The translations under genes and the position numbers were made by a program. Below are positions 11,676 to 55,287 of a stretch of DNA of 64,000 bases, one piece after another (the first letter of the stretch is position 1; each line of letters begins with the position of its first letter). The notes below the pieces were generated by a model. The model saw nothing but the letters and a program-made list of their open reading frames with translations, searched no databases and was not told the DNA's origin. Source of the stretch: Thiohalorhabdus denitrificans (GTDB taxonomy: Bacteria; Pseudomonadota; Gammaproteobacteria; Thiohalorhabdales; Thiohalorhabdaceae); the NCBI RefSeq assembly GCF_001399755.1, contig NZ_LJCP01000008.1, positions 186,001-250,000 on the forward strand, in the 5' to 3' direction.

Positions 11676-11737
11676 GTTGCCGGGCTCTTCCCCTGCCTAC
11701 CTGGCCCCAGAACCGGGCCACGCCCAAGGAGGTTTCC

Positions 11738-16162: not shown

Positions 16163-16203
16163 CACCTTCCTCCCCGTCGCCGCCCGGTCCGTAGCGCCCC
16201 CCC

Positions 16204-21215: not shown

Positions 21216-22229
21216 TTAGGGCCGTCCATGGCTTTCCCCGGAGCCGCCCGCCGCGCCGCCTCCTCCCTGGTGGACGGACTGGCCAGGTCCCGCGGGAGTC
21301 CCCGGCTGACCGGGCTGACCAGGCTGGCTGGGCCCGGCAGGGGCTCCCGGCTGGCCGGGAGGTCCCTCCGGGGCCCCCTCGCCCGAGCGCGGATCACCGG
21401 TGGGGCCCCTCTGGCCGCCGCGCTGCTCCCACCGCGAAACCGGCTCGGAGCGCAGGGATACGGCGACGCCCACCCGCATGCCCGGGACCAGCCCCGACCC
21501 CACGGCGTCTTTCCGGGTCTCCACCACCACCCGGTGGCGCCCCGAACCCTCCACGGCCTGCGGATAGACCCCCACCACCTCGCCCTCAAGGACCCCGGCG
21601 GCCGCGTGCACATGGGCGGGATCCCCCGCCGCCATCCGGCGGGCCTCGGTACCCGGGACCTGTGCCTCAACCAGTACCCGGTCCGGGTCGGCCAGGGACA
21701 GGGCAGGCATGCCCACGGCGGTGAACTGCCCCACCTGCACGCCGGCATTGACCACCTGGCGCTTGACCACGTCCAAGCCCAGCACCACCCCGTCGAAGGG
21801 CGCCTCCAGGGCGATCTCCTCGAGAGGCTCCCCGTCGAGCTCCAGCTCCTCGATCTCCTTTTTGCTCAGCCCCCGCCATCGAAGGATCAGACGATTGCGG
21901 GCCATGGTCTGCTCGCTCTGATAGGAGAGCCGCTGGAAGTCGGAGTTGCGGTAGGTGGACAGGTAGCTGCTCTGCACGGTGCGCAGCTCCGCGCTCTCGA
22001 ACCAGACCAGGGGGTCCCCGGACTGGACCTGCGATCCCCGTGTGATGTCCGCCAGGTCGGTGATCTGCGCGTTGACCCGGATGCTCACCGAGCTCTGCCC
22101 CCGCTCATCGAATACCACCTGGCCGGGGTACCGTCGGGCGTCGTCCAGCGAGCCTCCGGCAGCGACTCCCGAAAAGAGGAGAAGAGGGAGCAGGAACCGG
22201 CGAAGGCGGAGCCCAAGGTAGGCTGTCAT
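21216..22229 (-). CDS. RND periplasmic adaptor with collagen-like Gly/Pro/Gln tail
   Basis: The 337-aa protein has a signal peptide and the adaptor core: SSVSIRVNAQITDLADITRG, hairpin RWRGLSKKEIEELELDG, barrel-sandwich and beta-barrel. A membrane-proximal domain is not evident. Instead the last about 70 residues are low-complexity, with GQPGAPAG and PGQPGTPAGPG repeats and a final GESHGRP. The tail may be a flexible tether or an interaction arm. It sits just downstream of the CusA-like permease and upstream of a second adaptor, so the operon holds more adaptors than permeases. It could serve either pump. Confidence 0.75.
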   Translation of the reverse strand: MTAYLGLRLRRFLLPLLLFSGVAAGGSLDDARRYPGQVVFDERGQSSVSIRVNAQITDLADITRGSQVQSGDPLVWFESAELRTVQSSYLSTYRNSDFQRLSYQSEQTMARNRLILRWRGLSKKEIEELELDGEPLEEIALEAPFDGVVLGLDVVKRQVVNAGVQVGQFTAVGMPALSLADPDRVLVEAQVPGTEARRMAAGDPAHVHAAAGVLEGEVVGVYPQAVEGSGRHRVVVETRKDAVGSGLVPGMRVGVAVSLRSEPVSRWEQRGGQRGPTGDPRSGEGAPEGPPGQPGAPAGPSQPGQPGQPGTPAGPGQSVHQGGGGAAGGSGESHGRP

Positions 22230-22251: not shown

Positions 22252-25200
22252 TCATGCCGTGGATCCGGATTCCGGATCGTCCCGGCTTGGTGGCTCGCCC
22301 GGGAGCCCCCGCGACTCGAGCCAGGTATAGGCCACCGGCACCACCAGCAGCACCAGCAGCAGGGCGCTCAGGGCGCCGCCGATCATGGGCGCCGCGATGC
22401 GGTGCATCACCTCGGAGCCGGTTCCGCTCACGTACATCAGCGGCATCAGCGCCAAGACCACGGTGAGCACGGTCATCATCACCGGACGCAGGCGCATCAC
22501 CGCCCCTTCGCGGATGGCCGCGTACAGGTCGCTCCCGTCGCGCAGTCGCCCTTCCTCCCGTCGCCGCCGGATGGCGTGGTCGATGTAGAACATCATCACC
22601 ATGGCGGTCTCCGCGGCCACGCCCGCGAGGGCGATCAGGCCCACGCCGACCGCCACGCTGAGCCGGTAGTCGAGGAGGTACAGCAGCCACACGGCCCCGA
22701 TGAGGGAGAAGGGAATGGCTCCGAGGATGAGCAGGGACTTGCGCAGGTCGCGGAACACCAGCTGGTAGAGCAGCAGCACGATCAGCAGGGTCACCGGGAT
22801 GATGTAGTAGAAGCTCTGCAGCGATTGCTGGAAATACTGGTAGCTTCCCGTCCATTCCATGTAGACGTTGTCGGGGAGGTCCACCTCCTCCGCAAGCACC
22901 TGCTTGGCCTCCTCGACGAAGGCGACGGGGTCGCGGTCGCGGTCGCCGAGGTCGATGTAGACATAGTTCGCCTTGAAGCCGTCCTCGCTCTTGATGACGT
23001 TCGGGTCGCGGGTAACCTCCACGTCCGCGACACTGTCGAGCGGGATGTAGCCGCCCTCGCCGAAGGGCACCAGGGTGCTCTCCTGCAGGCGCTGGACGCC
23101 GTCCCGCACCCCTGGCCGATACCGAACCATTACCGGGTAGCGCTCGCGCCCCTCCACGGTCCAGGTCAGGTTGGCGCCGCCCACGGCGGTACGCAGGGTC
23201 TCCTGGACATCGTCCACATTGAGGCCGTAGCGACCCGCCTGCCGGCGGTTGATGTCGACGTCGGTGAAGTAGCCGAAGGTGGTGCGGTCGGCGTAGACGT
23301 TGTCCGCGCCCTCGATCCCCTGCAGGGCTTCCTCGATCTGCGCCCCCACCCGGTCCAGCTGGCGCAGGTCGTCGCCGTGGAGCTTGATCCCCAACGGGGT
23401 GCGCACGCCGGTGCTTAGCATGTCGATGCGGCCGCGGATGGGCATGGTCCAGCTGTCCACCAGGCCCGGGACGGAGACCTTGTCCTCCATCTCCGCCTGG
23501 AGCTTCTCCGGGGTCATGCCGTCGCGCCACTGGTCCCGGGGCTTGAGGGTGATGATGGTCTCGATCATGGACAGCGGCGCCGGATCGGTAGCCGTGTCCG
23601 CCCGCCCGGCCTTGCCGAACACCTTTTCCACCTCGGGGATCTCCATCAGGGCGCGGTCCTGGTTCTGCATGACCCGCCCGATCTCGGTGATGCTCACCCC
23701 GGGATTGGTGGTGGGCATGTACATCAGGGAGCCCTCGAACAGCGGCGGCATGAACTCCTTGCCCAGGCGCGTGGCCGGGAAGGCCGTGGCCACGCCCAGC
23801 ACCACCACCGCCAGGATCACCCCCCAGCGGCGGTTCAGACAGCCGCGCAGCACGGGGGTGTAGGCACGGATCAGGGCGGCACTGATGGGGTTGCTGCCCT
23901 CTGGACGGATGCGGCCGCGCACCAGGTCGGCGGTGAGGGCTACGATCAGGGTGATGGACAGCACCGCCGCGATGGCCATGGCCAGGGTCTTGGTCCACAC
24001 CAGCGGGCTGAACAGCCGGCCGGCCTCCCCCGGAAGCAGCAGCAACGGCAGGAAGGAGACGGTGAGCACCAGCAGGGACACGAAGATGGGCGCCGCCACC
24101 TCTTTCATGCCGGCGAGCACCGCCTGCAGCCGCACCTCCCGATCCTCCGGACGATCCAGGCGCTCCAGGTGCTTGTGGGCGTTCTCCACCATGACGATGG
24201 CGGCATCCACCATGGCGCCGATGGCCAGGGCAATCCCACCCAGGGACATGATGTTGAGGGTCAAGTCCATCCACCGGATGAAGGCGAAGCTGATGAGCAG
24301 CGCCGCCGGCAGGGTCAGTAGCACCACCAGGGTGCTGCGCGCGTGCCAAAGGAACAGCAGGATCACGGCGGCCACCACCAGCGCCTCATGCCACAGCACC
24401 TCGCCGAGGGTGGCCACGGAGCGCTCGATCAGGGGCTCACGGTCGTAGACCGGCTCGATGGTCACGCCATCGGGAAGCTGGTCGCGCACCTCGGCGATTT
24501 TGTCCTGGACGCGCTGCAGGATGCTCCAGGCATCCCCCTGGTGCTGCATGACCACGATGCCCCCCGCCACCTGGCCCTGGCCGTTCAGATCCGTGATGCC
24601 CCGGCGCTGATCCGCCCCAACCTGGATGGTGCCGAGCTGGCCCAGGGTCACGGGCACCCCACGGTCGGTGCGGCGCACCGGGACCTTCGCCAGGTCCTCC
24701 GTGCCCTGGACATACCCCAGACCCCGGATCAGGTTCTCGTGGCCGCCGCGCTCGATCAGGCGTCCGCCCTCGTCGCTGTTGCTGCCTTTAACCGCCTGCA
24801 CCACCTGGTCCAGGCCGATGTCGAAGGCACGCAACCGGTTGGGGTCCAGTTCCACCTGGTACTGGCGCACGTAGCCGCCCACGCTGGCCACCTCCGAGAC
24901 CCCCTGAACCCCCTCCAGGGCGTAGCGCAGGTACCAGTCCTGCAAGGTGCGCAGCTCCGACAGGTCGTGGCGGTCCGACTTCAGGGCGTACTGGTAGATC
25001 CAGCCCACCCCGGTGGCGTCCGGACCGAGGCTGACCTCGGCGCGCTCCGGAAGGTCGTCCTTGACCTGGTCGAGGTACTCCAGGACCCGCGATCGGGCCC
25101 AGTAGAGATCGGTGTCGCCATCGAACAGGACGTAGACCAGGGAATAGCCGAAGGCGGAATAGCCCCGCACGTCCTTGGCTTGGGGAACGTGGAGCATGGT

Positions 25201-25413
25201 CGAGGAGAGCGGATAGGTGACCTGGTCCTCGATGACACCGGGGGACTGGCCGGGCCACTTGGCGTAGATGATGACCTGGGTGTCGGAAACGTCCGGGATG
25301 GCATCGAAGGAGACTTGGCGCAGGGACAGAATGCCGATGCCGATGGCCGCCAGGACCAACAGGTACACGGCGGTGCGCCGGTACGTAGCGAATTCCAGGA
25401 TGCGGTTGATCAT
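22252..25413 (-). CDS. CusA-like Cu(I)/Ag(I) RND permease
   Basis: The 1053-aa permease is close to the CusA group: IPDVSDTQVIIYAKWPGQSP near the N-terminus, GAMVDAAIVMVENAHKHLE in TM4 (the Ala after Asp is normal for CusA), GKAGRADTATDPAPLSM and RIDMLSTGVRTPLGIKL in the porter domain, and FIALAGVAAE-like VGLIALAGVAAETAMVM in TM11. CusA pumps export monovalent copper or silver from the periplasm or cytoplasm. Met residues in the porter segments fit metal binding, but the exact ligand set needs an alignment. It is flanked by adaptor genes on both sides. Confidence 0.9.
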   Translation of the reverse strand: MINRILEFATYRRTAVYLLVLAAIGIGILSLRQVSFDAIPDVSDTQVIIYAKWPGQSPGVIEDQVTYPLSSTMLHVPQAKDVRGYSAFGYSLVYVLFDGDTDLYWARSRVLEYLDQVKDDLPERAEVSLGPDATGVGWIYQYALKSDRHDLSELRTLQDWYLRYALEGVQGVSEVASVGGYVRQYQVELDPNRLRAFDIGLDQVVQAVKGSNSDEGGRLIERGGHENLIRGLGYVQGTEDLAKVPVRRTDRGVPVTLGQLGTIQVGADQRRGITDLNGQGQVAGGIVVMQHQGDAWSILQRVQDKIAEVRDQLPDGVTIEPVYDREPLIERSVATLGEVLWHEALVVAAVILLFLWHARSTLVVLLTLPAALLISFAFIRWMDLTLNIMSLGGIALAIGAMVDAAIVMVENAHKHLERLDRPEDREVRLQAVLAGMKEVAAPIFVSLLVLTVSFLPLLLLPGEAGRLFSPLVWTKTLAMAIAAVLSITLIVALTADLVRGRIRPEGSNPISAALIRAYTPVLRGCLNRRWGVILAVVVLGVATAFPATRLGKEFMPPLFEGSLMYMPTTNPGVSITEIGRVMQNQDRALMEIPEVEKVFGKAGRADTATDPAPLSMIETIITLKPRDQWRDGMTPEKLQAEMEDKVSVPGLVDSWTMPIRGRIDMLSTGVRTPLGIKLHGDDLRQLDRVGAQIEEALQGIEGADNVYADRTTFGYFTDVDINRRQAGRYGLNVDDVQETLRTAVGGANLTWTVEGRERYPVMVRYRPGVRDGVQRLQESTLVPFGEGGYIPLDSVADVEVTRDPNVIKSEDGFKANYVYIDLGDRDRDPVAFVEEAKQVLAEEVDLPDNVYMEWTGSYQYFQQSLQSFYYIIPVTLLIVLLLYQLVFRDLRKSLLILGAIPFSLIGAVWLLYLLDYRLSVAVGVGLIALAGVAAETAMVMMFYIDHAIRRRREEGRLRDGSDLYAAIREGAVMRLRPVMMTVLTVVLALMPLMYVSGTGSEVMHRIAAPMIGGALSALLLVLLVVPVAYTWLESRGLPGEPPSRDDPESGSTA

Positions 25414-25476: not shown

Positions 25477-26904
25477 TCAGTGATGGTGGCCGCCCCCGCC
25501 GCCCGATTGCGCCATGGAAACCTCTGCGTCCAGGAAGTACTGCCCCTGGACCACCACCTCCTCCCCGGCCTGGAGGCCTTCCTCGACCACCAGCCGGCCC
25601 TCCGCTAGGTCCCCGAGCCGTACTTGCCGCGCCTGGTACTGGCGAGGGCCCGTACGGACGAACACCCGGGCGCCCTCCCCGGTACGGATCACCGCCCCCT
25701 CGGGGATGGAGAGCACGGGCCGCGCCTCCCACTCGGGCAGGGGCTCTATCTCCTTCTGGCCCATGGTGGCGGCGCTGCCCTCCGGCCGCTGCCGGGCGCT
25801 ATCACGGTCCGTGCTAACCGGTTCCGCTTCCCCCTCTGCATCCGTAACCAGGATCGGATCCTCCGGCTTGCTGCGGTCGCCTTCCACCGGCACGCGGAAC
25901 TCCACGTCGGCGTACATGCCCGGCATCAGGTCAAGCTCCTCGTTGGGCAGCACGACGCGCGCGATCCGGGTGCGCTGGCCCATGCGCATGTCCGGATAGA
26001 CGTAGGTCACCGGGGCCTCATAGACCCGGTTGGGCAGGCCGTGCACCTGGACGCGGGCCGTCATCCCCTCCCGCACCCGATCCATTTGGGAGCCGAGAAG
26101 CTCGGCCTGGACCCACATGGTCTCCAGGCGGGCCACCTGGGCTACCACATCGCCGATGGCGGTGAACTGGCCGCCACGCACACCGGCGTTGATTAAAGAG
26201 TTGTGCTGCACCGGCTGCTGGGTCACCACGCCGGTGACCGGCGACTCGATGGGCATGGTTTTGGGTACCTCACCCCGGTCCTGCATCTCCCGAATCTCGC
26301 CGTCCGTTAGGCCCCGCCAGAGCAGAGTCACCCGGGAGGTGACATCCAGGTTCTCGAAATCGTGACCAAGGCGGGCGATATCCTGCTGGGCCCGCAATCC
26401 GGCCAGGTAGTCCTCGGCGACGCGGATCAGGTTGGGGCTGTGGAGCTCCATGAGGACCTCGCCCTCCTCCACCAGCTGGCCCTCGAAGAACTCGTTGTAG
26501 ACCTCCACCTCGCCGTTGACCCGCGCGGTTACGTCCACCACGTTGCGCGGGTCGTAGGTCAGCTCCGCCACGGTTTGCACCCGCTTGTGCAGCGGGGCCT
26601 CCACAGCCGGGGCGGATTGCACGCCGAGGATGCGCTTTTCCTGCTCGGAGAGGGCTACCGTGGGGGCCTGATGGCCTTGGGGGTGCCCGGCTTCACCCTG
26701 ACCCTCATGGTCCACGTAGCCTTCGGCATCCCCTTCGTGTTCTTCCTGAGAATGAACCTGGCCCGACGCCTCCTCCTGCTGCGGTCCCTCATGCTGATGC
26801 CCCTCCTGGGCCCGGGCAGAAGTCCCCCCAGCCACCAGCAGGAGCGTCCCCAGGGCCATCGCGGCACGGGACGGAATCAGAGCGGCTTGACTATTCCTTC
26901 GCAT
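25477..26904 (-). CDS. CusB-like adaptor with His-rich ends
   Basis: The 475-aa protein has a signal peptide (TLLLVAGGTSARAQ), then a His/Glu/Gln-rich mature N-terminus with GHQHEG, VHSQEEHEG, YVDHEG and GHPQGHQ. Next come a CusB core (NVVDVTARVNGEVEVYNEFFEGQ, WRGLTDGEIREMQ) and a C-terminal GGGGGHHH. His tails at both ends point to metal binding and hand-over to the CusA-like pump encoded 63 bases downstream. An extra acidic loop (GEAEPVSTDRDSARQRPEG) interrupts the beta-barrel region. Its start overlaps the end of the preceding adaptor by 14 bases. Confidence 0.87.
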   Translation of the reverse strand: MRRNSQAALIPSRAAMALGTLLLVAGGTSARAQEGHQHEGPQQEEASGQVHSQEEHEGDAEGYVDHEGQGEAGHPQGHQAPTVALSEQEKRILGVQSAPAVEAPLHKRVQTVAELTYDPRNVVDVTARVNGEVEVYNEFFEGQLVEEGEVLMELHSPNLIRVAEDYLAGLRAQQDIARLGHDFENLDVTSRVTLLWRGLTDGEIREMQDRGEVPKTMPIESPVTGVVTQQPVQHNSLINAGVRGGQFTAIGDVVAQVARLETMWVQAELLGSQMDRVREGMTARVQVHGLPNRVYEAPVTYVYPDMRMGQRTRIARVVLPNEELDLMPGMYADVEFRVPVEGDRSKPEDPILVTDAEGEAEPVSTDRDSARQRPEGSAATMGQKEIEPLPEWEARPVLSIPEGAVIRTGEGARVFVRTGPRQYQARQVRLGDLAEGRLVVEEGLQAGEEVVVQGQYFLDAEVSMAQSGGGGGHHH

Positions 26905-28309
26905 GACTGGCCTCGTTCCAGCGCCATTCGCTGTCCGGATCCACCATGAACCGGGCCCGGGCGGCGATCTCGGTGCCCGGAGCGAGCCCATCCAGGATCA
27001 CCGTCCGCCCGTCCCGGTGGGCCCCGGTGTCCACCCGCTGGAACCGGAACCGATCCGATCCCTTCCGGATCAGGACGTAGGACCGCCCGTGCCGCTGCAG
27101 GACGGCCTCCTGGGGCACCCAGAGGCGCTCGGGCACCTCCACCTCCAGGGCCACCTGGACGAACATGTTGGGCAAAAGCTCCAGGTCCTCGTTGGGAAGC
27201 TCGATGAGAACCCGCTTGCGGCGGGTCTCGGTATCGACATCAGCGAAAACGTAGTCGACCTTGCCGGAATACACCGTGTCGCCGCCGGTCTCCTGCACCT
27301 GAATCCGTGCCTCGGTGCCCTCCACACCCTTCTTGCCGGCGCCGAGCTGGGCCACCTCGTCCTCCAGGGCGAAGTCCGCCACCACCCAGATGGGCGACAG
27401 CTTCGCGACGCTCACCACGGTGCTGCCCACTAGCACCCAGCCCTGCATCTCCCGCGCCCCGGCATTCACCAAGCCACCCCGGTTGACCTCGGTATCCACC
27501 ACGTAACCGCTGATGGGCGACGGGATCACATAGTCCCTGTTGACCTCCTCGGTCTCCTCCAGATGTTTGATCTCCTTATCGGAAAGGCCCCACCACCGCA
27601 TATTCTCCCGGCTGTCCTCGATGAACTTGTCCGGGTCAAAGGAATAGGACAGGCGGCCATCGTTGCTCAGGTTGACTAGATGGGTGTACTGGGCCAGCAC
27701 CCGCTCGGGCGCGAACAGATTGAGCAAGGGGGCACCCTTCTCGAGACTCTGTCCCTGGAAGATGAACTGGTCCTGCACCAGGCCGCTGCTCTGGATATTG
27801 ACGTCCTGCACGCTGGTGGGGTCGTACCTTACGGTGCCCTCCCCCTTCAGGGTCAGGTGATCCGTGCCGGCCCGTACCGTAAGTGTGGGCGCGGCGGTAG
27901 CCTGCACCAGTTCCCGGGCCTTCCCTTCGATGCGGCCGGGATCCTCGGGCCGGATTACGCGGGTGCGCTCCTTCACCAGCTCCAGGTGCCGCTCCCGGCC
28001 CTGACCGGATTCCGTAAGTCCCTTGAGCCGCTTTTGCTCCTCCTCGGACGTTTTCCGACTGGGCTGGCCGGGCTGTCCTGATTGCACCGACTGCCCCGGT
28101 TGTACGGGCGGCTGACCCGGCTGGCCTGGCTGCGCCTGCGTGCGGCCGGAAGCGTTGGCATTGGGCGGGGATGCACCCGCTTCACCAGGGGCGGGAGACA
28201 CCTGCGCCAACCGGGGGAGGACCGGAGGCAACTCATCGGAAGCGAGCGCCCCGGAAGGGACCATCGGAGGCAGTAACGCTAGCAAGGCGAGCCGCGGGCA
28301 GAACTTCAT
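26891..28309 (-). CDS. RND adaptor with Pro/Gly/Gln linker (first gene of operon)
   Basis: The 472-aa protein has a signal peptide (ALLALLPPMVPSGALAS) and a low-complexity linker with QPGQPGQPPVQPGQSVQSGQ. The charged segment EEEQKRLKGLTESGQGRERHLELVKERTRV follows, then the adaptor core with NMRWWGLSDKEIKHLEETEE and VDYVFADVDTETRRKRVLIELPNEDLELLPNMFVQV. The start at MKFCPRLAL was chosen for the signal peptide; the in-frame extension upstream is not protein-like. It opens the 14-kb minus-strand operon, beyond the terminator of the TcDH-like gene, so it needs its own promoter in 28,310-28,450. Confidence 0.82.
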   Translation of the reverse strand: MKFCPRLALLALLPPMVPSGALASDELPPVLPRLAQVSPAPGEAGASPPNANASGRTQAQPGQPGQPPVQPGQSVQSGQPGQPSRKTSEEEQKRLKGLTESGQGRERHLELVKERTRVIRPEDPGRIEGKARELVQATAAPTLTVRAGTDHLTLKGEGTVRYDPTSVQDVNIQSSGLVQDQFIFQGQSLEKGAPLLNLFAPERVLAQYTHLVNLSNDGRLSYSFDPDKFIEDSRENMRWWGLSDKEIKHLEETEEVNRDYVIPSPISGYVVDTEVNRGGLVNAGAREMQGWVLVGSTVVSVAKLSPIWVVADFALEDEVAQLGAGKKGVEGTEARIQVQETGGDTVYSGKVDYVFADVDTETRRKRVLIELPNEDLELLPNMFVQVALEVEVPERLWVPQEAVLQRHGRSYVLIRKGSDRFRFQRVDTGAHRDGRTVILDGLAPGTEIAARARFMVDPDSEWRWNEASHAKE

Positions 28310-28453
28310 GCTGAGCAAGGCCCCTTCCCTGGGCTGCGAATGGAACGACACCGAGGAGATGAATCCGCCATCGACTGATGACTCTTGGAAATTCTCATCC
28401 AGATATGGAGCTGCAATTCGGCAAATACCAACGGATCCGTCCAAAGGCTTTCT

Positions 28454-28489
28454 CAAAAAAACCGGAACGGGGCGGCTGCCCCGCTCCGG
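28454..28489 (-). terminator. Rho-independent terminator after the TcDH-like gene
   Basis: On the minus strand a 12-bp stem (CCGGAGCGGGGC / GCCCCGTTCCGG, one G-U pair) with a four-base loop is followed by seven T. It lies 10-45 bases past the stop of the gene at 28,499, so it separates that transcript from the RND operon. Confidence 0.9.
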
Positions 28490-28498
28490 GTGCGACTC

Positions 28499-29971
28499 TT
28501 ATACCGACAGACTCCGCGCCAGCTTGGCCTCCTCCCAGTCGTGCGGGATGTTGACGTGGTCGTGGTGGCCGTTCGGCGAGGGCTGCCGGAGGACAATCTT
28601 TCCGGTGTCCGCCTCGAACACCACCAGTCCCGACTGACCGCCCTGGTGCCCGCTATACACCGTGGTCATGTACTTGTCGTCATGGGTCGGCTCCACGGTG
28701 TGCGGATCGGGCCCGATGTCGAGCTCGTAGTCGATCTTCCACTTGCCGTCGTTGGGCACGCGGACCACCTTTCCCCGGTTCGGGCGGCGTGCCCAGGCGG
28801 TGAAGAAGAAGGCCCGCTCGTCGGCGTGGTTGGCCATGTGGAAGGGCAGGTGGGTACGCCCGAAGCCCTCGATATAGGCGATCTTCTTCCACTTCCGGGG
28901 ATCCGGGTTGGTGGAATCGTAGACGGCCACGTTGTTCTGCAGAACGTTGTTACAGGCCAGGAAATACTTGCCGCTAGTGCTGAAGCCCGCCTCGTGCATG
29001 GGCGACAGGGCCGAGGGCACGTTGAACTGCCAGGTGTAGCCCGTCTGGCGAATCAGCGGGAAATTGTTCGGCGCCCCCTTGGGCGTGGCGAGCAGGGCGA
29101 TGGGCTCCCAGTTCTTGGTGTCCAGGATGCAGCACAGGCCCTGCCGCCGGATCAGCACGCTGGCCAGATGCTCCTCCGGGTGCCAGGTGATGGCGTCCAC
29201 AAAGCAGGAGGTGGGGTCCGCCGGCATGAGCTCCTCGCCCATGAGCGCCTCGTGGGTGATCTTGGCGCCCTTCATACCCTGGTAGTCGAACTTCCCGGTG
29301 TTGGAGTCGGGGAAGATGCGGCTGACGTTCAGGGTCTTTCCGGTGGGGTCGTAGTCGAACTTGAAGGCCGCCACCACCTCGGTGTCGTCGTCGGTGGTGG
29401 TTACCAGGGCGATGTCCTTCTGGCCGTCGGCGAAGGAAACCAAGCCCTTGTTCTTGCCCACTCCGATGGAGGTGTGGACGCCAAGGCCCATGCCGAGCTT
29501 GTCCGAGATGTCGGTAACCACCTCGATGCGGTTCTGGTCATCCTTGCCGTGGTAGCGCAGCTTCCACATGCGCATATCGCCCCGGTTGCGCCATTCCGGT
29601 GAGTTCTCGTTGACGTAGGGGGCGCCGGGGCGCTGGTTGGTCAGGAAGAAGTCGAACCCTTCCCGCGGCTTTTCGGACGGCATGGAGCAGATGTGGTGCG
29701 GGATCGGGGCGTCCATTCCCGTCAGCATCATGGGTAGCCAGGCGAGGGTCTCGCCCACGGCCGGGTCCACGACCTGCACCAGGCCGGAGTATTTGCCGGG
29801 CAGGGCGCAGATGTTGCCGTCCAGCGTGCTCATGTCGAAGTTCCCGACGTCCCGGGATTCCTCCGCCTTCATGGAGGCCGCACGACCGCCGCCCGCGCTG
29901 AGCAGCCCCGCGCTGCCGACCAGTCCGGCCGCTCCGGCGGAACGGAAGAAATCGCGTCGCTTCATGGTCAT
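28499..29971 (-). CDS. Thiocyanate dehydrogenase-like copper beta-propeller enzyme
   Basis: The 490-aa periplasmic enzyme has a Tat leader (KRRDFFRSAGAAGLVG). The rest is a beta-propeller related to the N-terminal domain of nitrous oxide reductase: PHHICSM (His92/His93) parallels the His pair of the NosZ CuZ site. Further His are well placed: His166, His326 (SPMHEAGF), His374/378/382, His424/430, His442 and His469/470/472. It stops at residue 490 and lacks the CuA cupredoxin domain, so it is not NosZ. The features fit thiocyanate dehydrogenase of Thioalkalivibrio, a trinuclear copper enzyme that turns SCN- plus water into cyanate and sulfur with two electrons to cytochrome c. Copper genes next door agree. 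Assignment is from motifs and context, without a search. Confidence 0.68.
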   Translation of the reverse strand: MTMKRRDFFRSAGAAGLVGSAGLLSAGGGRAASMKAEESRDVGNFDMSTLDGNICALPGKYSGLVQVVDPAVGETLAWLPMMLTGMDAPIPHHICSMPSEKPREGFDFFLTNQRPGAPYVNENSPEWRNRGDMRMWKLRYHGKDDQNRIEVVTDISDKLGMGLGVHTSIGVGKNKGLVSFADGQKDIALVTTTDDDTEVVAAFKFDYDPTGKTLNVSRIFPDSNTGKFDYQGMKGAKITHEALMGEELMPADPTSCFVDAITWHPEEHLASVLIRRQGLCCILDTKNWEPIALLATPKGAPNNFPLIRQTGYTWQFNVPSALSPMHEAGFSTSGKYFLACNNVLQNNVAVYDSTNPDPRKWKKIAYIEGFGRTHLPFHMANHADERAFFFTAWARRPNRGKVVRVPNDGKWKIDYELDIGPDPHTVEPTHDDKYMTTVYSGHQGGQSGLVVFEADTGKIVLRQPSPNGHHDHVNIPHDWEEAKLARSLSV

Positions 29972-30019
29972 GATTCGTGCTCCTTTTCGCTGGATGCGAG
30001 CGTTGTCCCTGAATCGCTC

Positions 30020-30676
30020 CTAGGAGGAGGCGATGAACTGGGAGATTTCCTTCTGCCGGGCGTCATCGGCCCAGTTCTGGGTGCTCAGGTAGTTCTTCAC
30101 GATGGTGCCGTCCTGCTTCACCAGGAAGGTGGCGGGGGCGTTGCGCAGCCCCAGGGCTTGCACCGCGTAGGACTTCTTATCCAGGTAGGTGTCGACGCGA
30201 TTCACCCCCAGGTCCTGCCGGAGCGCGCGGATGGTGCGGTTCACCGAGGCCATGGGGGTGTCCGGGGTGAGCTTGCCGCCCACGCTACCCAGGTGGATGG
30301 CGACCACCCGCAGGCCCGGGTTTTCCTGCTCCAGGCGGTCCAGGGCCTTCAGCTCTTCCAGGGCTTTCTCGTTGTGGGCCATGAAGAAATTGAGGACCAC
30401 CGGCTTGTCCCCACTGCTCAGCACCTGTCGGAGAGTGGTTTCCTCTCCGTCCAGGGTCTCCAGCGGCAGGTCCATGGGCACCTGATCTCCTTCGCCCTTG
30501 GTCTCGATGAACACCTCCCCGCCCACCTCTTCGGCGGTGGGGAACGCCCCGCCGGACTTCTTATTCGGGTTCGTGAACTGGTCGTCCGCGACCCCGATCG
30601 TCGTCCCCCCCAGGAACGCCAAGGCGAGCGCGGCTGCCGCCGACAGCAACGCCTTTCGAAAGTGATTGCTTCGCAT
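30020..30676 (-). CDS. TlpA-like thioredoxin-fold protein without active-site cysteines
   Basis: The 218-aa exported protein has a signal peptide (ALALAFLGGTTIGVA) and a redoxin-like fold with PMDLPLETLDGEETTLRQVLSSGDKPVVLNFF. Where WCxxC should stand it reads MAHNEKALEEL, and there is no Cys in the whole mature chain. The cis-Pro loop is kept (LRNAPATFLVKQDG). It is therefore not a redox enzyme but may bind or fold a partner. It is first in the sigma-54 transcript, 48 bases before the TcDH-like gene, so a role as copper chaperone or maturation factor for that enzyme is likely. A strong AGGAGG precedes the ATG. Confidence 0.8.
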   Translation of the reverse strand: MRSNHFRKALLSAAAALALAFLGGTTIGVADDQFTNPNKKSGGAFPTAEEVGGEVFIETKGEGDQVPMDLPLETLDGEETTLRQVLSSGDKPVVLNFFMAHNEKALEELKALDRLEQENPGLRVVAIHLGSVGGKLTPDTPMASVNRTIRALRQDLGVNRVDTYLDKKSYAVQALGLRNAPATFLVKQDGTIVKNYLSTQNWADDARQKEISQFIASS

Positions 30677-30781
30677 GATGCCCCCTCCTACGAGGTTGAA
30701 AGTTCCACCACCCGGCTCGGGCGGCTTGCCATGCCACAGGGACCGCGGTGCGTGTCCCCGGTCCTTTCCACACGTTTAATT

Positions 30782-30796
30782 GCAACCCCCGTACCA
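30782..30796 (-). promoter_or_regulatory. Sigma-54 (-24/-12) promoter of the TcDH-like operon
   Basis: Read on the minus strand the element is TGGTACG-GGGG-TTGC, one base off the consensus TGGCACG-N4-TTGC, with the exact GG-N10-GC spacing. It lies about 106 bases before the start codon at 30,676. It needs an AAA+ enhancer-binding protein; paired dyads upstream and an NtrC-family gene nearby supply both parts. Confidence 0.85.
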
Positions 30797-30857: not shown

Positions 30858-30894
30858 GTTCCACCCCGAAACAAGGCCTGTTCCAGGCTGAAAC
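30858..30894 (-). promoter_or_regulatory. Tandem upstream activator dyads of the TcDH-like operon
   Basis: There are two 15-bp dyads: GTTCCA-CCC-CGAAAC at 30,858-30,872 and GTTCCA-GGC-TGAAAC at 30,880-30,894. They start 22 bases apart, two helical turns, and lie 62-98 bases upstream of the -24 element. The same dyad occurs twice upstream of the porin gene at 37,452-37,486. Consensus of the four is GTTYCA-N3-YGRAAC. Confidence 0.82.
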
Positions 30895-31021: not shown

Positions 31022-31666
31022 TCAGTCCGTGCTGATAAGCTCCGTGGCGCGAAGATTCCGGAACACCGGACCGGGCGCGGAGCCGCTCAGAAGGGCCAGG
31101 CGGCGGTCGCTATTGGATCGGTGACTCCCGCCTTCCTCGTAGCTAAGAACGCATTCCCCGTCGACCCAGACCACCGGGAACGCCCCCACGTGGCGCAGGT
31201 GCAGGCGGATCCACTGGTCCCGGGAGAGGGCCACCTGCTCCGCAGCCAGCTCCTCTTCCTCCTCCCCCTGGAACCGCACCAGGGCCACCCGTTGTTCGGG
31301 CCAATCCACCGTAACGGCGAGGATCTCGTCGCTCTCGGGATCCTCGCCATGGATCAGGGCCAGGCCCCCCCGCCCCCCTTCCCCGGGACCGGAACGCAGG
31401 ACCGTCTCCGCCATCAGGTTCTGAAAGGTATGGCCCCCATAGACGAATAAACCGTGGGGGTGGGGATAGGGCTCCGAGGCGGTACCGCCGGTGGCCGCTT
31501 CTCGACGCACCAACGCCTGTTCTTCGGCCACCCTGTCCAGTGCCCAGGCGCCGAAATGCGGATGGCCCAGGGCCTCCAGCTCCGTTTCGCTCATGGGGCC
31601 GAACCAGGCATCCACAAACGGCCAATCATAGGCCTCGGGCTGTTCCGTCACGTGCTCCGTCTCCAT
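31022..31666 (-). CDS. ConA/LamG-like domain protein, unknown function
   Basis: The 214-aa acidic cytoplasmic protein has no signal peptide. The core resembles a concanavalin-type beta-sandwich: GLFVYGGHTFQNLMAETVL, GGLALIHGEDPESDEILAVTVDW, VALVRFQ, RDQWIRLHLRHVG, FPVVWVDGECVL, and a last strand with FRNLRATEL. Such domains bind sugars or other ligands. It follows the regulator gene by 38 bases and shares its terminator, so it may assist or modulate that two-component system. The start METEHVTE has GAGGAG upstream. I do not recognise a named family. Confidence 0.6.
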   Translation of the reverse strand: METEHVTEQPEAYDWPFVDAWFGPMSETELEALGHPHFGAWALDRVAEEQALVRREAATGGTASEPYPHPHGLFVYGGHTFQNLMAETVLRSGPGEGGRGGLALIHGEDPESDEILAVTVDWPEQRVALVRFQGEEEEELAAEQVALSRDQWIRLHLRHVGAFPVVWVDGECVLSYEEGGSHRSNSDRRLALLSGSAPGPVFRNLRATELISTD

Positions 31667-31704
31667 GGGAGTGTCTCCTCGACTATGGTCCCCATTGCCT
31701 TCCG

Positions 31705-33111
31705 CTACTCCAGGCCGTAGCGCTTCATCTTCCTCCACAGCGTGGTCCGGCCGATGCCCAGGTTGCGGGCGGTCCGTGTCAGGTTGTGGCCCGTCTGCTC
31801 CAGTGCCCGCTTGATGGTGGCGATCTCCTGATCCTCCAGGGTTTCCACACCTTCACCGCCTGGGCCACCGGCCCCCACTGCCTCAGCGGGCTCGCTCACA
31901 AGGGCGGTACCTTCCGTTACCTCTTCGGGGAGGTCCGCCACTGTGACCCTGGGAATAGCGGCCTCGGCGAAGGCAGTCACCTGCTCCATCACCGCCTGGA
32001 GCTGACGCACGTTGCCCGGAAACGGGAAGGCCCGTAGCGCCTCCAGGGCGTCCTCGTCGAACCCCCGCAGGGGTTTGCCGTACTTCTCCGCGTACTCCCG
32101 AAGGAAGTGCTCCGCCAGCCAGCGGATGTCCTCCGGACGGTCGCGCAGGGGCGGCAAATGGAACCGGACCCCGTTCAGGCGGTAGTACAGGTCTTCCCGC
32201 AGGGACATGGGACGGCCGTCACCGGCGTACCCCTCCTCGCCCGTGGCGGCCACCACCCGAATATCCACCTTCCGCTCGCGGTTGGAGCCCACCCGGCGGA
32301 TGGCGGAGTCCTGCAGAACGCCCAGGAGCTTGGCCTGCAGGGCCTCGGGCATGGAGCCTACCTCGTCCAGGAAGATGGTCCCCCCATGGGCCGCTTCGAA
32401 CAGGCCCTCCTTGTCCGCCGACGCCCCGGTGAAGCTGCCCCGCACGTGCCCGAACAGCTCGCTCTCCAGCAGCGCTTCCGGCAGCCCGGCACAGTTGATA
32501 TTGATGAACGGACCGTTGGCCCGGGGGCTCTGGTTGTGGATCTCCCGGGCCAACAGGGTCTTTCCGGTGCCCGTCTCGCCCGTAATGAGGATGCCGAGAT
32601 CCGTCTTCGCGGCCTGCGTCATGCGCGACCAGATCTTCCGCATCCCTTGGCTCTGGAAGTGAAAACCTTCGGAGGTCGCGACCTCCTGATCCTGGTCGAA
32701 GGGGAACAGGGAGTCGGCGGAGGCGACGATGTTGCTCCGGAGCTTTTCCAGCAGCTCCTCCTGGTCGTAGGGTTTGGTGAGGTAATCGACGGCCCCGATG
32801 CGCATGGCCTCCACCGCGGACTCGATGGTGCCGTAGGCGGTAATTAGGATGACGGGGAGGGAGCGGTCCCGCTTGCGGATCTCCTTCAGCAGCTCCAGCC
32901 CCGACATGTCCTCCATCTTGAGGTCCGCCAGGACCCCTTCCACCGGGCGCTCTTCCAGGTGGCGAAGCGCGGTTCGCCCTCCATCCGCCTCCAGGGGGTT
33001 GAAGCCGGCCGCCTCCAGGAGCAGCACCAGGCTCTCCCGCATGGGGGCGTGGTCATCGACGACCAGAATGTTATCCGGCGAGGTTTCCGGAGACCGTTGA
33101 CCGCTGGACAT
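31705..33111 (-). CDS. NtrC-family sigma-54 response regulator
   Basis: The 468-aa protein has a receiver (Asp63 in VLADLKMEDMSG), a linker and an AAA+ domain with Walker A GETGTGKT (178-185). The sigma-54 contact loop is GSFTGA (225-230; Ser replaces the usual Ala), Walker B is GGTIFLDEVGSM, and the Fis-type C-terminal helix-turn-helix is TARNLGIGRTTLWRKMKRYGL. It activates sigma-54 RNA polymerase after phosphorylation. It lies between two transcripts that both have sigma-54 promoters and identical tandem dyads, so those are its likely targets. The start overlaps the kinase gene by 41 bases and follows GGAGG. Confidence 0.93.
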   Translation of the reverse strand: MSSGQRSPETSPDNILVVDDHAPMRESLVLLLEAAGFNPLEADGGRTALRHLEERPVEGVLADLKMEDMSGLELLKEIRKRDRSLPVILITAYGTIESAVEAMRIGAVDYLTKPYDQEELLEKLRSNIVASADSLFPFDQDQEVATSEGFHFQSQGMRKIWSRMTQAAKTDLGILITGETGTGKTLLAREIHNQSPRANGPFININCAGLPEALLESELFGHVRGSFTGASADKEGLFEAAHGGTIFLDEVGSMPEALQAKLLGVLQDSAIRRVGSNRERKVDIRVVAATGEEGYAGDGRPMSLREDLYYRLNGVRFHLPPLRDRPEDIRWLAEHFLREYAEKYGKPLRGFDEDALEALRAFPFPGNVRQLQAVMEQVTAFAEAAIPRVTVADLPEEVTEGTALVSEPAEAVGAGGPGGEGVETLEDQEIATIKRALEQTGHNLTRTARNLGIGRTTLWRKMKRYGLE

Positions 33112-35656
33112 GCGCTTCCTCCGTGAGGGGAAGAATCAGGGCGACGGTGGTGCCCGACCCCGGGACGCTGGACACCTCCACCCGCCCTCCTTGGCTCTCC
33201 ACGACCTGCTTGACGATGGCCAGTCCAAGGCCGGATCCCGAGGCGTTGGTGGTGAAGAAGGGCTCGAAAATGTCCTCCATTTGTTCCGGTTCAATGCCCC
33301 GCCCGTCGTCCTCCACGGCGAGCCGGAGCTCGCCGTCCAGAGACGTTCCGCAGAGCCGGATACGCCCCGCATCGCCGCAGGCCTTCACGGCATTCAGGAA
33401 CAGGTTCCAGAGGGCCTGCCGAAGGCGGTCGGAATCCATCCTGCACATGGGGAGAGCCGGAGGGGCATCCACCAACAGCTGGATGTCCGCGTCCTGGCCG
33501 GCGAGGTGGGCCTGGGCCTCTTCCTCCACCGAGGCCAGGAGGCGGCGCGGATCGCTTTCGCGCAGCATCTCCCCCGCCGGGCGGGCGAAATCCAGGAAGT
33601 CGCTGGCGGTCTTCTCCAGGCGCCGGGCCTCCTCCTCGAGGATGCGCAGGGCCCGGTCGCGCGCGTGCTCCCCGGTACCGGGGCTGTTCAGGATCTTCAG
33701 GCAATTGGACATGGCTCCCAGGGGATTGCGGATCTCGTGGGCGATCCCCGCGGACATCTGGCCGATGGCTGCCAGCTTCTCCGAGCGGATCTTTTCCCGC
33801 TGCGTCCGCTGGAGCTGCTCGTTTGTCGCGCTCAGCTCCTGGATGAGAAAGGCGTCTTGCAGGGCCATGCCAGCGTGCATGGCCAGAAGCTGCGCTTTGG
33901 CCATGGTCTCCCCGGAGAAGGGGACGTCCATATTGCGGCACAGGACAAGGAGCCCAAGCACCCCATCGCGCCCCTCCACGGGGAAAATGGCGCCCTGCCG
34001 GCACGGCCCGCCCCCCTGGGCAAACAGGCCCCGCAGCTTGGGGTGTACCGTCAGGTCCACCGCCTCCGGCCTGTTCCGCCGCAGCACCCGTTCCAGGGGG
34101 CCGCTATGCTCCTCGAGGGGCCATTCCCCGAGCCGCCCCTCCATGGGCGAAAATTCCGGGTGGCAGCACGCGTACCGACGCAGACTGTCCTCCTGCGCAT
34201 CCGCCAGCCAGATGGCGGCCGCCTCCGCCTTGAGCAACCGAGCTCCGTCCCGGCAGACCACATTCAAAATGTCCCGTACGTCCCCCGCCGAGTTGATCAT
34301 CGAGACGATGGTTTGCATGGTGTCCTGCACCCCGCCTTCCCAGACCGTCTCCCGGTAGAGGATGGCCCCGGCAAGGGCCTGGGAGGCCCCGTCCACCATG
34401 CTCAGGATCTCCCCCATCCGGTCCTGGCCGGGATCCTCGGCCTCCCCCCAGCAAAGGGAGAGGCGCCCCAGGCGCCGGCCGTGGGCGTGCACGTCCACGC
34501 ACACGCCTCTTCCGGACTCGGCCGCCCGGTTGTCCTGTTCCTGGAAGGCAAGGCGCTCCGCCCCGCTGTCCCCCAGCAGCTCGTCCTTGAGCAAATCGGG
34601 GTTACGCAGCACCGAGGCGTCGATGTAGAAACGTCCGGACACGGGCCCAACCAATCGGCCCACCGCCGTCTCGAAGGTCTCCAGGATCCGCTCCATGTCC
34701 AGCGTTCCCGCCCCGCATTCCGTGATGGTGGTACGGCAGCTCAGGACCCGGTAGCTGAACTCCAGCTGCTCTTGCTGCTCTTGGAGCCGCTCATTGGAGC
34801 GGGACAGGGCATTCTTGACCCCCTGGATCTTGCGCACCGCATAGATGTAGCCAAAGACCAGGAAGGCCAGGATCCCCATGTAGAGCAGGACCTTGACCCC
34901 GTGCCACAGCCACCAATTGATGTCCCACAGGGTGGACAGGGGGAAGAGGAAGGCGCTTTCGGCGAACAGGCCGTGGATAGCCGTAAACACCCCCAGGGAG
35001 AGCTCTCCGCTCCGCCGGTAACCGGCGAAGCAGAGCAGGGCGGCCCCCGTGAACAGGACCCCGGCCGCTCCGTTCAGAAAAATGCTCGCCCAGGTGAACT
35101 CCTGGCTGCGACCCGAGGGGTGAACCATGGCCAGGAATTCCTGGTCAGGGACCCAATAAACCAGTAGAAGGCTTCCCACCAGGGGGACGAGGACCGCGGT
35201 CAGAATCTTCCGCGGCTCCAGATGGTCCAGACGCATCCGCGGCAGGACGGCCAGGTAGGCCGTCAGCATGAGCAGGGCGCCCCAGGCGACCGAGAGGGAG
35301 TGGAGGGCGACGAATCGCTCGGAGCCCGGCTCCGAGATGGCGTGGATCAGGTCGAACAAGCCCATGGCCAGGAAGGCCAGGGTGAAAAACAGCAGCTCAT
35401 TGCGGGGTTGCAGGAAATAGATCCCGCCGGCGGCCACCACCACCAGCAGGGCCACGAGACCACAAAACCCCTCCACAACCCCGTGGGTGAGGGCCAGGAC
35501 ATAGCTCTCGTCCAGGGCCTGCTCCCGAAGACCCAACAGAGCGATCGGGGGCAACAGCAGGACCAGGGCCACACCCCAGGTCAGCACCCACCGGTGCCTG
35601 GGATCCAGCCGCCAGCCTTCCCCGGACTCCTCGGGCAGAAGGAAGTTGGTCTGCAC
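33071..35656 (-). CDS. Membrane sensor histidine kinase, partner of the NtrC-like regulator
   Basis: The 861-aa kinase starts with about eight membrane helices of MASE type (THGVVEGFCGLVALL, LAFLAMGLFDLIHAIS, then five more). A coiled coil follows (NALSRSNERLQEQQEQL), then two GAF-like regions, a HisKA helix with GIAHEIRNPLGAM and a HATPase_c with DDGRGIEPEQ and GSGLGLAIVKQVVE. The signal may be sensed by the membrane part or by the GAF regions. I chose the GTG at 35,656, which has AGGAG seven bases before it; an ATG at 35,773 has no ribosome site. The 41-base overlap with the regulator shows they form one unit. Confidence 0.88.
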   Translation of the reverse strand: MQTNFLLPEESGEGWRLDPRHRWVLTWGVALVLLLPPIALLGLREQALDESYVLALTHGVVEGFCGLVALLVVVAAGGIYFLQPRNELLFFTLAFLAMGLFDLIHAISEPGSERFVALHSLSVAWGALLMLTAYLAVLPRMRLDHLEPRKILTAVLVPLVGSLLLVYWVPDQEFLAMVHPSGRSQEFTWASIFLNGAAGVLFTGAALLCFAGYRRSGELSLGVFTAIHGLFAESAFLFPLSTLWDINWWLWHGVKVLLYMGILAFLVFGYIYAVRKIQGVKNALSRSNERLQEQQEQLEFSYRVLSCRTTITECGAGTLDMERILETFETAVGRLVGPVSGRFYIDASVLRNPDLLKDELLGDSGAERLAFQEQDNRAAESGRGVCVDVHAHGRRLGRLSLCWGEAEDPGQDRMGEILSMVDGASQALAGAILYRETVWEGGVQDTMQTIVSMINSAGDVRDILNVVCRDGARLLKAEAAAIWLADAQEDSLRRYACCHPEFSPMEGRLGEWPLEEHSGPLERVLRRNRPEAVDLTVHPKLRGLFAQGGGPCRQGAIFPVEGRDGVLGLLVLCRNMDVPFSGETMAKAQLLAMHAGMALQDAFLIQELSATNEQLQRTQREKIRSEKLAAIGQMSAGIAHEIRNPLGAMSNCLKILNSPGTGEHARDRALRILEEEARRLEKTASDFLDFARPAGEMLRESDPRRLLASVEEEAQAHLAGQDADIQLLVDAPPALPMCRMDSDRLRQALWNLFLNAVKACGDAGRIRLCGTSLDGELRLAVEDDGRGIEPEQMEDIFEPFFTTNASGSGLGLAIVKQVVESQGGRVEVSSVPGSGTTVALILPLTEEAHVQRSTVSGNLAG

Positions 35657-35857
35657 CGGGTCGCTCCTGGAAGCCGCCGCGCCTTTGAAGACTGCGGACC
35701 GCGGCAAGCGCCTACCCTGCCGAGCTAGGCTTGTAAGGGGTATAAAGGTGTATGGGTTCCATTTAACCCCCATCCACGGGATCTGTTAAGGGAACGTCCC
35801 GAATGGCCTTAAGTGACCACCCAAGTCCCGGCCACCAACCGGAAACCGGGATCGCCC
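35657..35857. other. Intergenic region between porin and kinase genes
   Basis: About 200 bases between the porin stop and the kinase GTG. It should hold the kinase promoter and the end of the porin transcript. A TTTATACC stretch near 35,740 (minus strand) could be a -10, but no sigma-54 element or GTTYCA dyad was found, so the regulator may not control its own operon. Confidence 0.4.
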
Positions 35858-37252
35858 TCAGAAGCTGGCGTTGACCATGCCATAGAGGAAGTTCGGGTCC
35901 TCGTCGGATTCGATCCTTCCCAGGTCGTGCATGCCGTCGTCGCTGAAGAACTTGGAATACCCCAGCAGCAGAACCGCCCTGGGGTGCGCCTTGTAGGCCA
36001 CGGTCAGGTCGACCTCGTTGCCTAGGGCGTCATCGGTGCCGCCCGGTGCATCGGCCAGAGCGAAGTTATGCCCCTTGAGCCACACCCCTAGCCGCTTGGC
36101 GGGCTTGAGATGCAGCGACAGGTGGGCATCGCGGAGACCATGGCCGTTGGTATTGGCATCGGGGGAGATCAGGAAGTAGTCCATGTACCCGTAATAGGGA
36201 TGGTTGGTGGAGTAGAGGGTGCTGAAGGCCTCATAGTCCCCAGTAGAGGCGTCCCTGTCACCGGACAGGTAGTCCACCCCGCCCCAAACCAACGGCCGGC
36301 CCGGGACATTTCCCAGGCCGTACCCCAGGTAGCCGGCGGCCATGTAGGCGTCGATGTCCTGGCCGGCCCGGCTGGGGCCCATATCCCCGCGCTGCAGATA
36401 CCCCTCCAGCCGCCAGTACAGCCCCGGGTCCTTGGGGTACTTCAGGGTCCGGCCCAGAAAGGGGCTCAGGAAGCTGCCCCCGGAATCGGTGCGCGCCAGG
36501 AAGAACCCACCGGTGTGGCGCTCCGAAGCGGGCAGGCCGCCTGGCCCGTGCTCCAGCCGGGAGGCGGAGAACGGGGTTCCTTGGAGGTCATCGTCGTAGA
36601 CGTAGGTAAGCTCCAGCCGGCTGGCCGGCACCAGGGCGTCGTTGCGGAAATGGGCCACGTAGGCTTGCTGGTCGGCGTCGGCATCCCCCACCGGCAAGGG
36701 CCCACCTGCGTTGCCACCGTAGTCCTCCCCCGCCAGCTGCAGGGCGAACAGGCTCACCTGGTGGTTCCCAGCGGACCAGCGCAGGCGCCCGCCATCAAAG
36801 GAGCGGGCCCGGTTGGACCAGCGGAAATCCCCGATCAAGCGATGGTCGGCCAGGTGCTGTTCGAACCGCCCGAGCCGAAGGTCGAGCTGGTCATTGAGCG
36901 GCCAGTCCAGGAAGGCTTGGTGCAGGGACTGGTTGGCGGGCGTGCGGTTGAAATCCACCGCCGCGCCCGTGTCGTTGTCCCCGAAAACCCCTACCTTCTG
37001 GGGCTGCAGGAAGATCCGGAAGCCGTTATCGGCCTGAAAATCGAGGTTCAGCCTGGCCCGATAGTTGGTGAACCGGGGCAGGTCCTCGTTGGCGGGAAAG
37101 GGTGGGCTCTGGTGACGGATGCGAAGCTGGGCCCCAACCTCCAGCGCGGTGTCGCCATCCTCTATGGTCACCCCGGCCTCCGCCGGGGACGGCAGCAGGA
37201 AACCGGCGGCAAGCGCCGACATCCCGCAGAGCAGTTTCCGGTGATTCCCCAT
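35858..37252 (-). CDS. Outer-membrane porin, alginate-export (AlgE)-like barrel
   Basis: The 464-aa protein has a signal peptide (AGFLLPSPAEA) and a long run of beta-strands. RFTNYRARLNLDFQADNGFRIFLQPQ and LRLGRFEQHLADHRLIGDFRWSNRARSFDG are typical of the alginate-export barrel family, and it ends in Phe. Such barrels are channels for anions. The gene has its own sigma-54 promoter and the same tandem dyads as the TcDH-like operon, so it is probably induced together with it. It could admit thiocyanate or another anionic substrate into the periplasm. The ATG follows GAGGAGG. Confidence 0.8.
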   Translation of the reverse strand: MGNHRKLLCGMSALAAGFLLPSPAEAGVTIEDGDTALEVGAQLRIRHQSPPFPANEDLPRFTNYRARLNLDFQADNGFRIFLQPQKVGVFGDNDTGAAVDFNRTPANQSLHQAFLDWPLNDQLDLRLGRFEQHLADHRLIGDFRWSNRARSFDGGRLRWSAGNHQVSLFALQLAGEDYGGNAGGPLPVGDADADQQAYVAHFRNDALVPASRLELTYVYDDDLQGTPFSASRLEHGPGGLPASERHTGGFFLARTDSGGSFLSPFLGRTLKYPKDPGLYWRLEGYLQRGDMGPSRAGQDIDAYMAAGYLGYGLGNVPGRPLVWGGVDYLSGDRDASTGDYEAFSTLYSTNHPYYGYMDYFLISPDANTNGHGLRDAHLSLHLKPAKRLGVWLKGHNFALADAPGGTDDALGNEVDLTVAYKAHPRAVLLLGYSKFFSDDGMHDLGRIESDEDPNFLYGMVNASF

Positions 37253-37348
37253 GGTGCCGCCCTCCTCGCCAGCGAACGGAACGGTGTCCCCGATACCCCG
37301 GACCGGCCAGGGGCCGGCTGGGCAAATGCAGGGTCACCAAACGCTTCT

Positions 37349-37363
37349 GCAACCGCTGTACCA
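37349..37363 (-). promoter_or_regulatory. Sigma-54 (-24/-12) promoter of the porin gene
   Basis: Read on the minus strand: TGGTACA-GCGG-TTGC, with exact GG-N10-GC spacing. It lies 97 bases before the porin start codon and 89 bases downstream of the nearer dyad. The TGGTAC half is identical to that of the TcDH-like operon promoter. Confidence 0.82.
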
Positions 37364-37451: not shown

Positions 37452-37486
37452 GTTCCAGGGTGGAACAGTCCGTTTCAGGCTGAAAC
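37452..37486 (-). promoter_or_regulatory. Tandem upstream activator dyads of the porin gene
   Basis: Two 15-bp dyads, GTTCCA-GGG-TGGAAC (37,452-37,466) and GTTTCA-GGC-TGAAAC (37,472-37,486), start 20 bases apart. Both are perfect inverted repeats. They match the pair upstream of the TcDH-like operon and lie 89-123 bases above the porin -24 element. Confidence 0.82.
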
Positions 37487-41841: not shown

Positions 41842-42047
41842 ACCTTTCCTCCGGATAGCCCGAGCCGGGCTTGTGCCGTCGCCCAGCTCTGCAAGGTCTC
41901 CACGATGCAGCAACGGGGAATCTCCAGGAACTCTCGAAGGCCTGCCGGAGCACCGCAGCGCCTTGCCGTGGGCGCCCGTCTCCTGGAGGATCCCGGGCAG
42001 GCATTCCATTGGCGAGGGGGAGCGGACTCCGTGAAAGGTTATGGCCC

Positions 42048-45281: not shown

Positions 45282-45417
45282 GGCTATCTCCCTTCGCGGC
45301 TTGCCCGCCGGCCAGGATAGCAGGGGGGCCAGCTGCCCCAGAAACGACCCCGCCCCAAGCATTTGACCGCTCGGTAAGCCCCCCGTGAGAATGAAGTCCC
45401 GGACACCGGAGACTCCC

Positions 45418-55286: not shown

Positions 55287-55287
55287 C

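Follow-up and report, generated by a model that had tools for sequence, protein, structure and literature searches.

The window (the whole 64-kb stretch of DNA analysed here) contains, with a probability that we put at about 85%, a thiocyanate-oxidation locus of the neutrophilic thiocyanate dehydrogenase (TcDH) type. Thiocyanate is a pollutant, and thiocyanate dehydrogenase (EC 1.8.2.7) oxidizes SCN- to cyanate and sulfur with cytochrome c. The enzyme type is known, and the window TcDH is a deep-branching variant of it; new here are the bracketing of TcDH and an adjacent thioredoxin-like gene by a promoter and a terminator, the tandem activator sites, and the presence of two RND sets (Table 1).

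Table 1. Features of the putative thiocyanate-oxidation locus and its surroundings, in window coordinates.
Feature	Position	Strand	Characteristics or basis
fccA-like monohaem cytochrome	11531-12055	+	
fccB, flavocytochrome c sulfide dehydrogenase flavoprotein	12068-13381	+	
Ordinary TlpA-type thioredoxin	14102-14914	-	CKPC present
Small cytochrome c	14665-14991	-	CSRCH
Met-rich outer-membrane-like protein	14975-16309	-	No family match
Monohaem cytochrome c	16204-16596	-	CVGCH; candidate electron acceptor
RND permease 2	16608-19952	-	Orthologue of 'CusA' of published loci; Met triad replaced by A/F/E; His-rich insert
CusB-type adaptor 4	19986-21143	-	
CusB-type adaptor 3	21216-22229	-	
RND permease 1	22252-25413	-	CusA type; copper Met triad intact
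CusB-type adaptor 2	25477-26991	-	His-rich N-terminus
CusB-type adaptor 1	26891-28456	-	
Strong intrinsic terminator	28462-28489	-	Directly after TcDH; 12-bp stem, T7
TcDH homologue	28499-29971	-	490 aa, Tat signal; sequence, active site, fold match
Thioredoxin-like protein, TlpA/ResA fold	30020-30676	-	218 aa, cysteine-free; conservation, model
Sigma-54 promoter of thioredoxin-like/TcDH unit	30781-30796	-	TGGTACG-N4-TTGCA; sole 11/12 match
Upstream activator site GTTTCGGGGTGGAAC	30858-30872	.	Palindrome scan
Upstream activator site GTTTCAGCCTGGAAC	30880-30894	.	Palindrome scan
238-aa protein	31022-31738	-	No Pfam/NCBIfam match; weak relatives near TcDH in L007 and L014
Sigma-54-dependent response regulator	31705-33111	-	GSFTGA; helix-turn-helix LGIGRTTLWRK
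Histidine kinase	33071-35773	-	MASE3-like membrane sensor (conserved His/Met/Asp), GAF, HisKA, HATPase
Outer-membrane porin	35858-37252	-	Pfam Alginate_exp; second regulon member
Sigma-54 promoter-like site TGGTACAGCGGTTGCA before porin	37348-37363	-	10/12; weaker alone
Upstream activator site GTTCCACCCTGGAAC	37452-37466	.	Palindrome scan
Upstream activator site GTTTCAGCCTGAAAC	37472-37486	.	Palindrome scan

A TcDH homologue with all published active-site residues

The 490-aa protein is a TcDH homologue. Its ORF starts with ATG and encodes the N-terminus MTMKRRDFFRSAG, a Tat-type RR motif that, judged by inspection, is followed by an Ala/Gly-rich stretch and fits periplasmic Tat export; the motif PHHICSM lies inside, no CuA domain was found within the 490 residues, and neither Pfam nor NCBIfam has a family for the protein. 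In a sequence search of the PDB, which in the copy used holds solved TcDH structures from two lineages only, the significant matches were exclusively TcDHs (5f75, 5oex, 8q9x and mutants; E 1e-70 to 1e-71, best 1.2e-71), with ~35% identity and residues 52-488 aligned. The AlphaFold model (mean pLDDT 81.5, pTM 0.83) is a seven-bladed propeller of TcDH type, which Foldseek matched to the Thioalkalivibrio paradoxus and P. methylotrophicum TcDH crystal structures with E ~1e-42 and TM 0.83-0.88; the best 20 matches were all TcDH and the next fold appeared only at E 1e-11. When aligned with the 5f75 chain, the window protein is identical at 13 of the 13 published active-site residues (Lys103, His135, His136, Gln156, His206, Glu288, Asp314, His381, His437, His482, His528, Asp529 and Arg544; Fig. 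4 legend of PMC6504805), which correspond to its K60, H92, H93, Q113, H166, E241, D259, H326, H378, H424, H470, D471 and R486, and likewise at all residues lining the TcDH cavity. A distant TcDH homologue elsewhere (L011 of genome G538, match 1501-2904 on the minus strand; 42% identity to T. paradoxus TcDH) carries Gln in place of His482 and keeps the other 12 residues.

An earlier note on this DNA had described a 490-aa Tat-exported protein with PHHICSM and no CuA domain, had likened it to TcDH, and had proposed checking the copper ligands and superposing an AlphaFold model; the protein, its likeness to TcDH, the ligands and the fold all bear this out. The 'NosZ-type' label that it gave to the His pair has to be dropped, the pair being that of TcDH. 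A His-His motif within a propeller sequence might suggest a NosZ-type or other unrelated propeller, but this is extremely improbable, with TcDHs filling the top of both searches, and identity with NosZ is ruled out by its absence from the PDB sequence hits and the 50 best fold matches and by the missing CuA domain.

One position outside this set differs. Tyr164 belongs to the electron route suggested for T. paradoxus TcDH (PMC9456337); the window protein has Asn121 instead, and the other four clade rows aligned also have Asn, so that electron transfer in the neutrophilic clade may take a different course.

Thiocyanate is very probably oxidized for energy by this copper enzyme. The strongest caution against such a reading is that the TcDH of Thiohalobacter FOKN1, a related strain, failed to oxidize thiocyanate when purified (PMC6934394), and we found no active purified TcDH of the neutrophilic clade in the literature searched. 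Taken with the altered residue 164 and the low identity to biochemically characterized TcDH, the inactive enzyme would fit a TcDH-fold copper oxidase whose true substrate is another small compound (sulfur, selenium or cyano) and which uses thiocyanate secondarily or not at all. We consider this unlikely, since the cavity is lined by identical residues, close relatives occur in organisms that grow on thiocyanate (PMC6504805), under thiocyanate feeding the proteome was rich in TcDH and cyanate accumulated (PMC6934394), and the genome has a cyanase.

A deep branch of the neutrophilic clade

Tsallagov et al. (2019; PMC6504805) have described the neutrophilic clade together with its locus, made up of a thioredoxin-like gene, a sigma-54 regulator, a GAF kinase, CusA and two CusB, and the window locus is therefore of a known type. 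On sequence grounds, the window TcDH is a member of this clade, which includes Thiohalobacter and Guyparkeria, and its deepest branch, with 55-68% identity to other members. In a maximum-likelihood tree it groups with those of genome G247 and the Thiotrichales MAG S21.Bin127, with support that is not strong (91/71); this group stands beside all other neutrophilic TcDHs, and the clade is set apart from the Thioalkalivibrio type with support of 100/100.

Whole-genome searches found the TcDH gene in five of 369 genomes of the host's class, to which Guyparkeria also belongs, and in neither of its two congeners. With the window protein as sole query, named genomes yielded no TcDH locus; a profile from the alignment returned 28, among them those of Guyparkeria SCN-R1 and Thiohalobacter thiocyanaticus HRh1, both thiocyanate growers in the clade, as well as Paracoccus thiocyanatus, likewise of the clade, Thiobacillus thioparus, Afipia sp. 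64-13 and Rhodoplanes serenus. Members of the clade occur in bioreactor genomes, Thiobacillus and Afipia among them. The TcDH of a 'Rhizobium' MAG has zero branch length to that of T. thioparus DSM 505 (loci L035 and L032) and represents a misbinned contig or a very recent transfer.

Two promoters with tandem activator sites

The thioredoxin-like gene lies 48 bp upstream of TcDH on the same strand. The sigma-54 promoter, 120 bp ahead of this pair, is the only 11/12 match in the 64 kb, against 0.37 expected. This promoter precedes the pair and, because a strong terminator follows it, the two genes probably form their own transcription unit. The terminator makes a single 20-kb operon doubtful, and co-transcription of the RND genes with TcDH is, given the terminator, unproven.

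The palindrome GTTYC-N5-GRAAC occurs at five sites in the window versus 0.15 expected, and across all 2.87 Mb of the genome tandem pairs are confined to two locations (reversed control, 0), before the thioredoxin-like/TcDH pair and before the anion-porin-like gene. Because the probable binding sites pair up only there genome-wide, the two-component system encoded upstream, a sigma-54 regulator with a GAF kinase, looks dedicated to the TcDH pair and the porin through predicted DNA binding, in line with the dedicated system suggested earlier from the gene neighbourhood. The genome contains rpoN. GSFTGA is kept in all regulators compared and the LGIGRTTLWRK helix wherever the C-terminus is intact; the window regulator is 45-51% and the kinase ~30% identical to those of neutrophilic-type loci. 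In Thioalkalivibrio, the TcDH cluster and its sigma-54 system are induced by thiocyanate (PMC5744179).

Between the regulator and TcDH, the same palindrome recurs in 15/15 loci where the regulator gene can be seen; four of these have it at a greater distance, 1.2-1.3 kb ahead of the thioredoxin-like gene. It occurs in 0/7 regulator-free loci, although their flanks are ample (L007, L014, L021, L034, L036, L038, L039). Behind these counts there are only about three independent gains or losses. A phylogenetically independent test yielded two to three independent pairs, all concordant and too few for significance. Where a promoter is recognizable, the distance from the nearest activator site to the start of the sigma-54 site downstream is 61-85 nt in most loci; no promoter of the TGGTACG-N4-TTGCA form was recognized in L010, L018, L025 or L027. 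The porin of G173, a genome of another family, again has two activator sites and an 11/12 sigma-54 promoter. No promoter or activator site for TcDH is reported in the literature searched, and the GTTYC-N5-GRAAC control code, common to other thiocyanate degraders, appears to be new; with it, thiocyanate regulons can be sought and tested directly at the DNA level.

Other genes and fragments were noted at these loci. In Thiobacillus sp. 65-29 (L016:1900-9000) the interval from regulator to TcDH contains a TonB-type receptor and TonB/ExbB/ExbD-like genes, possibly for uptake of copper or other substrates, along with an activator site at 2529. A C-terminal TcDH fragment of Guyparkeria SCN-R1 (L015:12293-12607) is preceded by a pair of activator sites of its own. 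The window itself encodes a TonB-dependent receptor (39787-42009, minus strand) whose best NCBIfam match, PqqU, is below the cut-off.

RND pumps and cytochromes

From ~28.4 kb down to 14.1 kb follow the copper RND/cytochrome neighbours that the earlier note had pointed out; they encode two RND permeases along with four CusB-type adaptors, and a pair of small cytochromes c. The order partner-TcDH-B-B-A1-B-B-A2 is common to the window, G247 and S21.Bin127, and G247 has a cytochrome after permease 2 that is 49% identical to the window monohaem cytochrome. Linkage of the RND genes to TcDH is conserved in relatives despite the terminator in the window. Permease 1 has the M573/M623/M672 triad of Escherichia coli CusA, to which it is 45% identical. 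In permease 2, and without exception in its orthologues from published-type loci, these positions are occupied by Ala/Phe/Glu; the solved structure nearest to permease 2 is ZneA. Because the copper Met triad is replaced, we question the 'copper' label of this permease type, which, as 'Cus copper transport' in the published locus, rested on 31% identity (PMC6504805). The substrate of a permease labelled a copper transporter but lacking the copper site becomes a testable question, and the deep-branching variant separates the two permease types. A third adaptor/permease pair, of another type and on the opposite strand, lies at 45385-49622 (+).

A pair of RND sets, of which one keeps the CusA triad, amid Met- and His-rich proteins could also be expected if the island served mainly copper or heavy-metal resistance and the propeller were a copper-binding or copper-oxidizing protein rather than a metabolic enzyme. 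This is very unlikely: the mapped regulon comprises the TcDH pair and the porin, leaving the pumps outside and beyond a terminator, permease 2 lacks the copper triad, and regulator, TcDH and thioredoxin-like gene are linked across classes. The suggestion that the whole island serves thiocyanate oxidation finds only partial support. The conserved RND-TcDH linkage speaks for it; the terminator that splits TcDH from the RND genes speaks against it, as does fccAB, which is nearby as previously indicated, on the opposite strand, and has no GTTYC-N5-GRAAC site. Membership of fccAB in the regulon, suggested by proximity only, is unsupported.

A cysteine-free thioredoxin-like candidate partner

A thioredoxin-like gene directly precedes TcDH in every locus long enough to show it, and its 218-aa product in the window contains no cysteine. 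The model (pLDDT 81) matches ResA and TlpA, including the TlpA-ScoI copper-delivery complex (TM to target 0.64-0.81). Among 19 homologues, invariant residues include G63, P67, D69, R178, P181 and W202 within the domain and G43, F45, P46, A48, V51, G52, G53 and V55 in an N-terminal arm with the conserved sequence G-x-F-P-T-A-E-x-V-G-G-x-V-F. Strict conservation of this arm despite low modelling confidence suggests a partner-binding peptide. Published speculation has the protein as a sulfur acceptor; a copper-loading factor is an equal candidate.

We raise the possibility, with the odds against it, that neutrophilic TcDH works only with this cysteine-free TlpA-fold partner, through copper loading or sulfur acceptance via the N-terminal arm, and that the pair and the anion porin form a two-promoter thiocyanate regulon whose GTTYC-N5-GRAAC enhancer code is common to alpha-, beta- and gammaproteobacteria. 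The partner hypothesis is worth testing because a requirement of this kind, if true, would account for the inactive purified FOKN1 enzyme.

Proposed pathway

In the scheme that we infer, from TcDH activity, signal and DNA binding to partner role and electron acceptor, thiocyanate would enter the periplasm through the anion porin, and the membrane kinase, sensing the substrate or a copper/redox cue, would phosphorylate the sigma-54 activator. Bound at the tandem palindromes, the activator would switch on the porin and thioredoxin-like/TcDH promoters; the partner would aid TcDH in one of its two candidate roles, and permease 1 would handle Cu(I). Cyanase would convert cyanate to ammonia and CO2, and Sox proteins would share in oxidizing the sulfur. 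The cyanase, which the earlier note had proposed looking for in the rest of the genome, is encoded beside glnA, ntrC and nitrite-assimilation genes; its control by GTTYC-N5-GRAAC was rejected, as the locus has no such site. The genome contains soxB and no dsrA above the cut-off, the single weak match being a nitrite reductase ORF beside cyanase.

Elsewhere in the window are genes for a gluconate dehydrogenase subunit-3-like protein and, next, a GMC oxidoreductase (55240-57518, plus strand) and for a BNR/sortilin-like propeller protein (62099-63970, minus strand); a BNR-repeat gene also adjoins some Thioalkalivibrio TcDH clusters.

Comparison with known loci

The locus of T. paradoxus and T. 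thiocyanoxidans (PMC5328954, PMC5744179) shares with the window the TcDH active-site residues, a GAF kinase with a sigma-54 regulator, and fccAB nearby, but its TcDH is only ~35% identical, it has copCD and an ABC transporter where the window has RND sets, and cyanase activity is reported absent from these organisms. S21.Bin127 (L014) and G247 are closer, with 66-68% TcDH identity and the same gene order, though with no kinase, regulator or activator sites nearby. The HRh1 and SCN-R1 loci (PMC6504805) resemble the window in a TcDH that is 56-58% identical, a cysteine-free thioredoxin-like gene directly upstream, the sigma-54 regulator and GAF histidine kinase, and a cyanase in the genome. Their one permease and two adaptors are orthologous to permease 2 and adaptors 3 and 4, but whereas CusA and two CusB lie upstream of TcDH there, the window orthologues lie downstream and are duplicated with a second type. 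Unlike these loci, the window has an additional permease that carries the Cu(I) Met triad, two more adaptors, two cytochromes c beyond the permeases, and a porin that, with its own promoter, belongs to the regulon.
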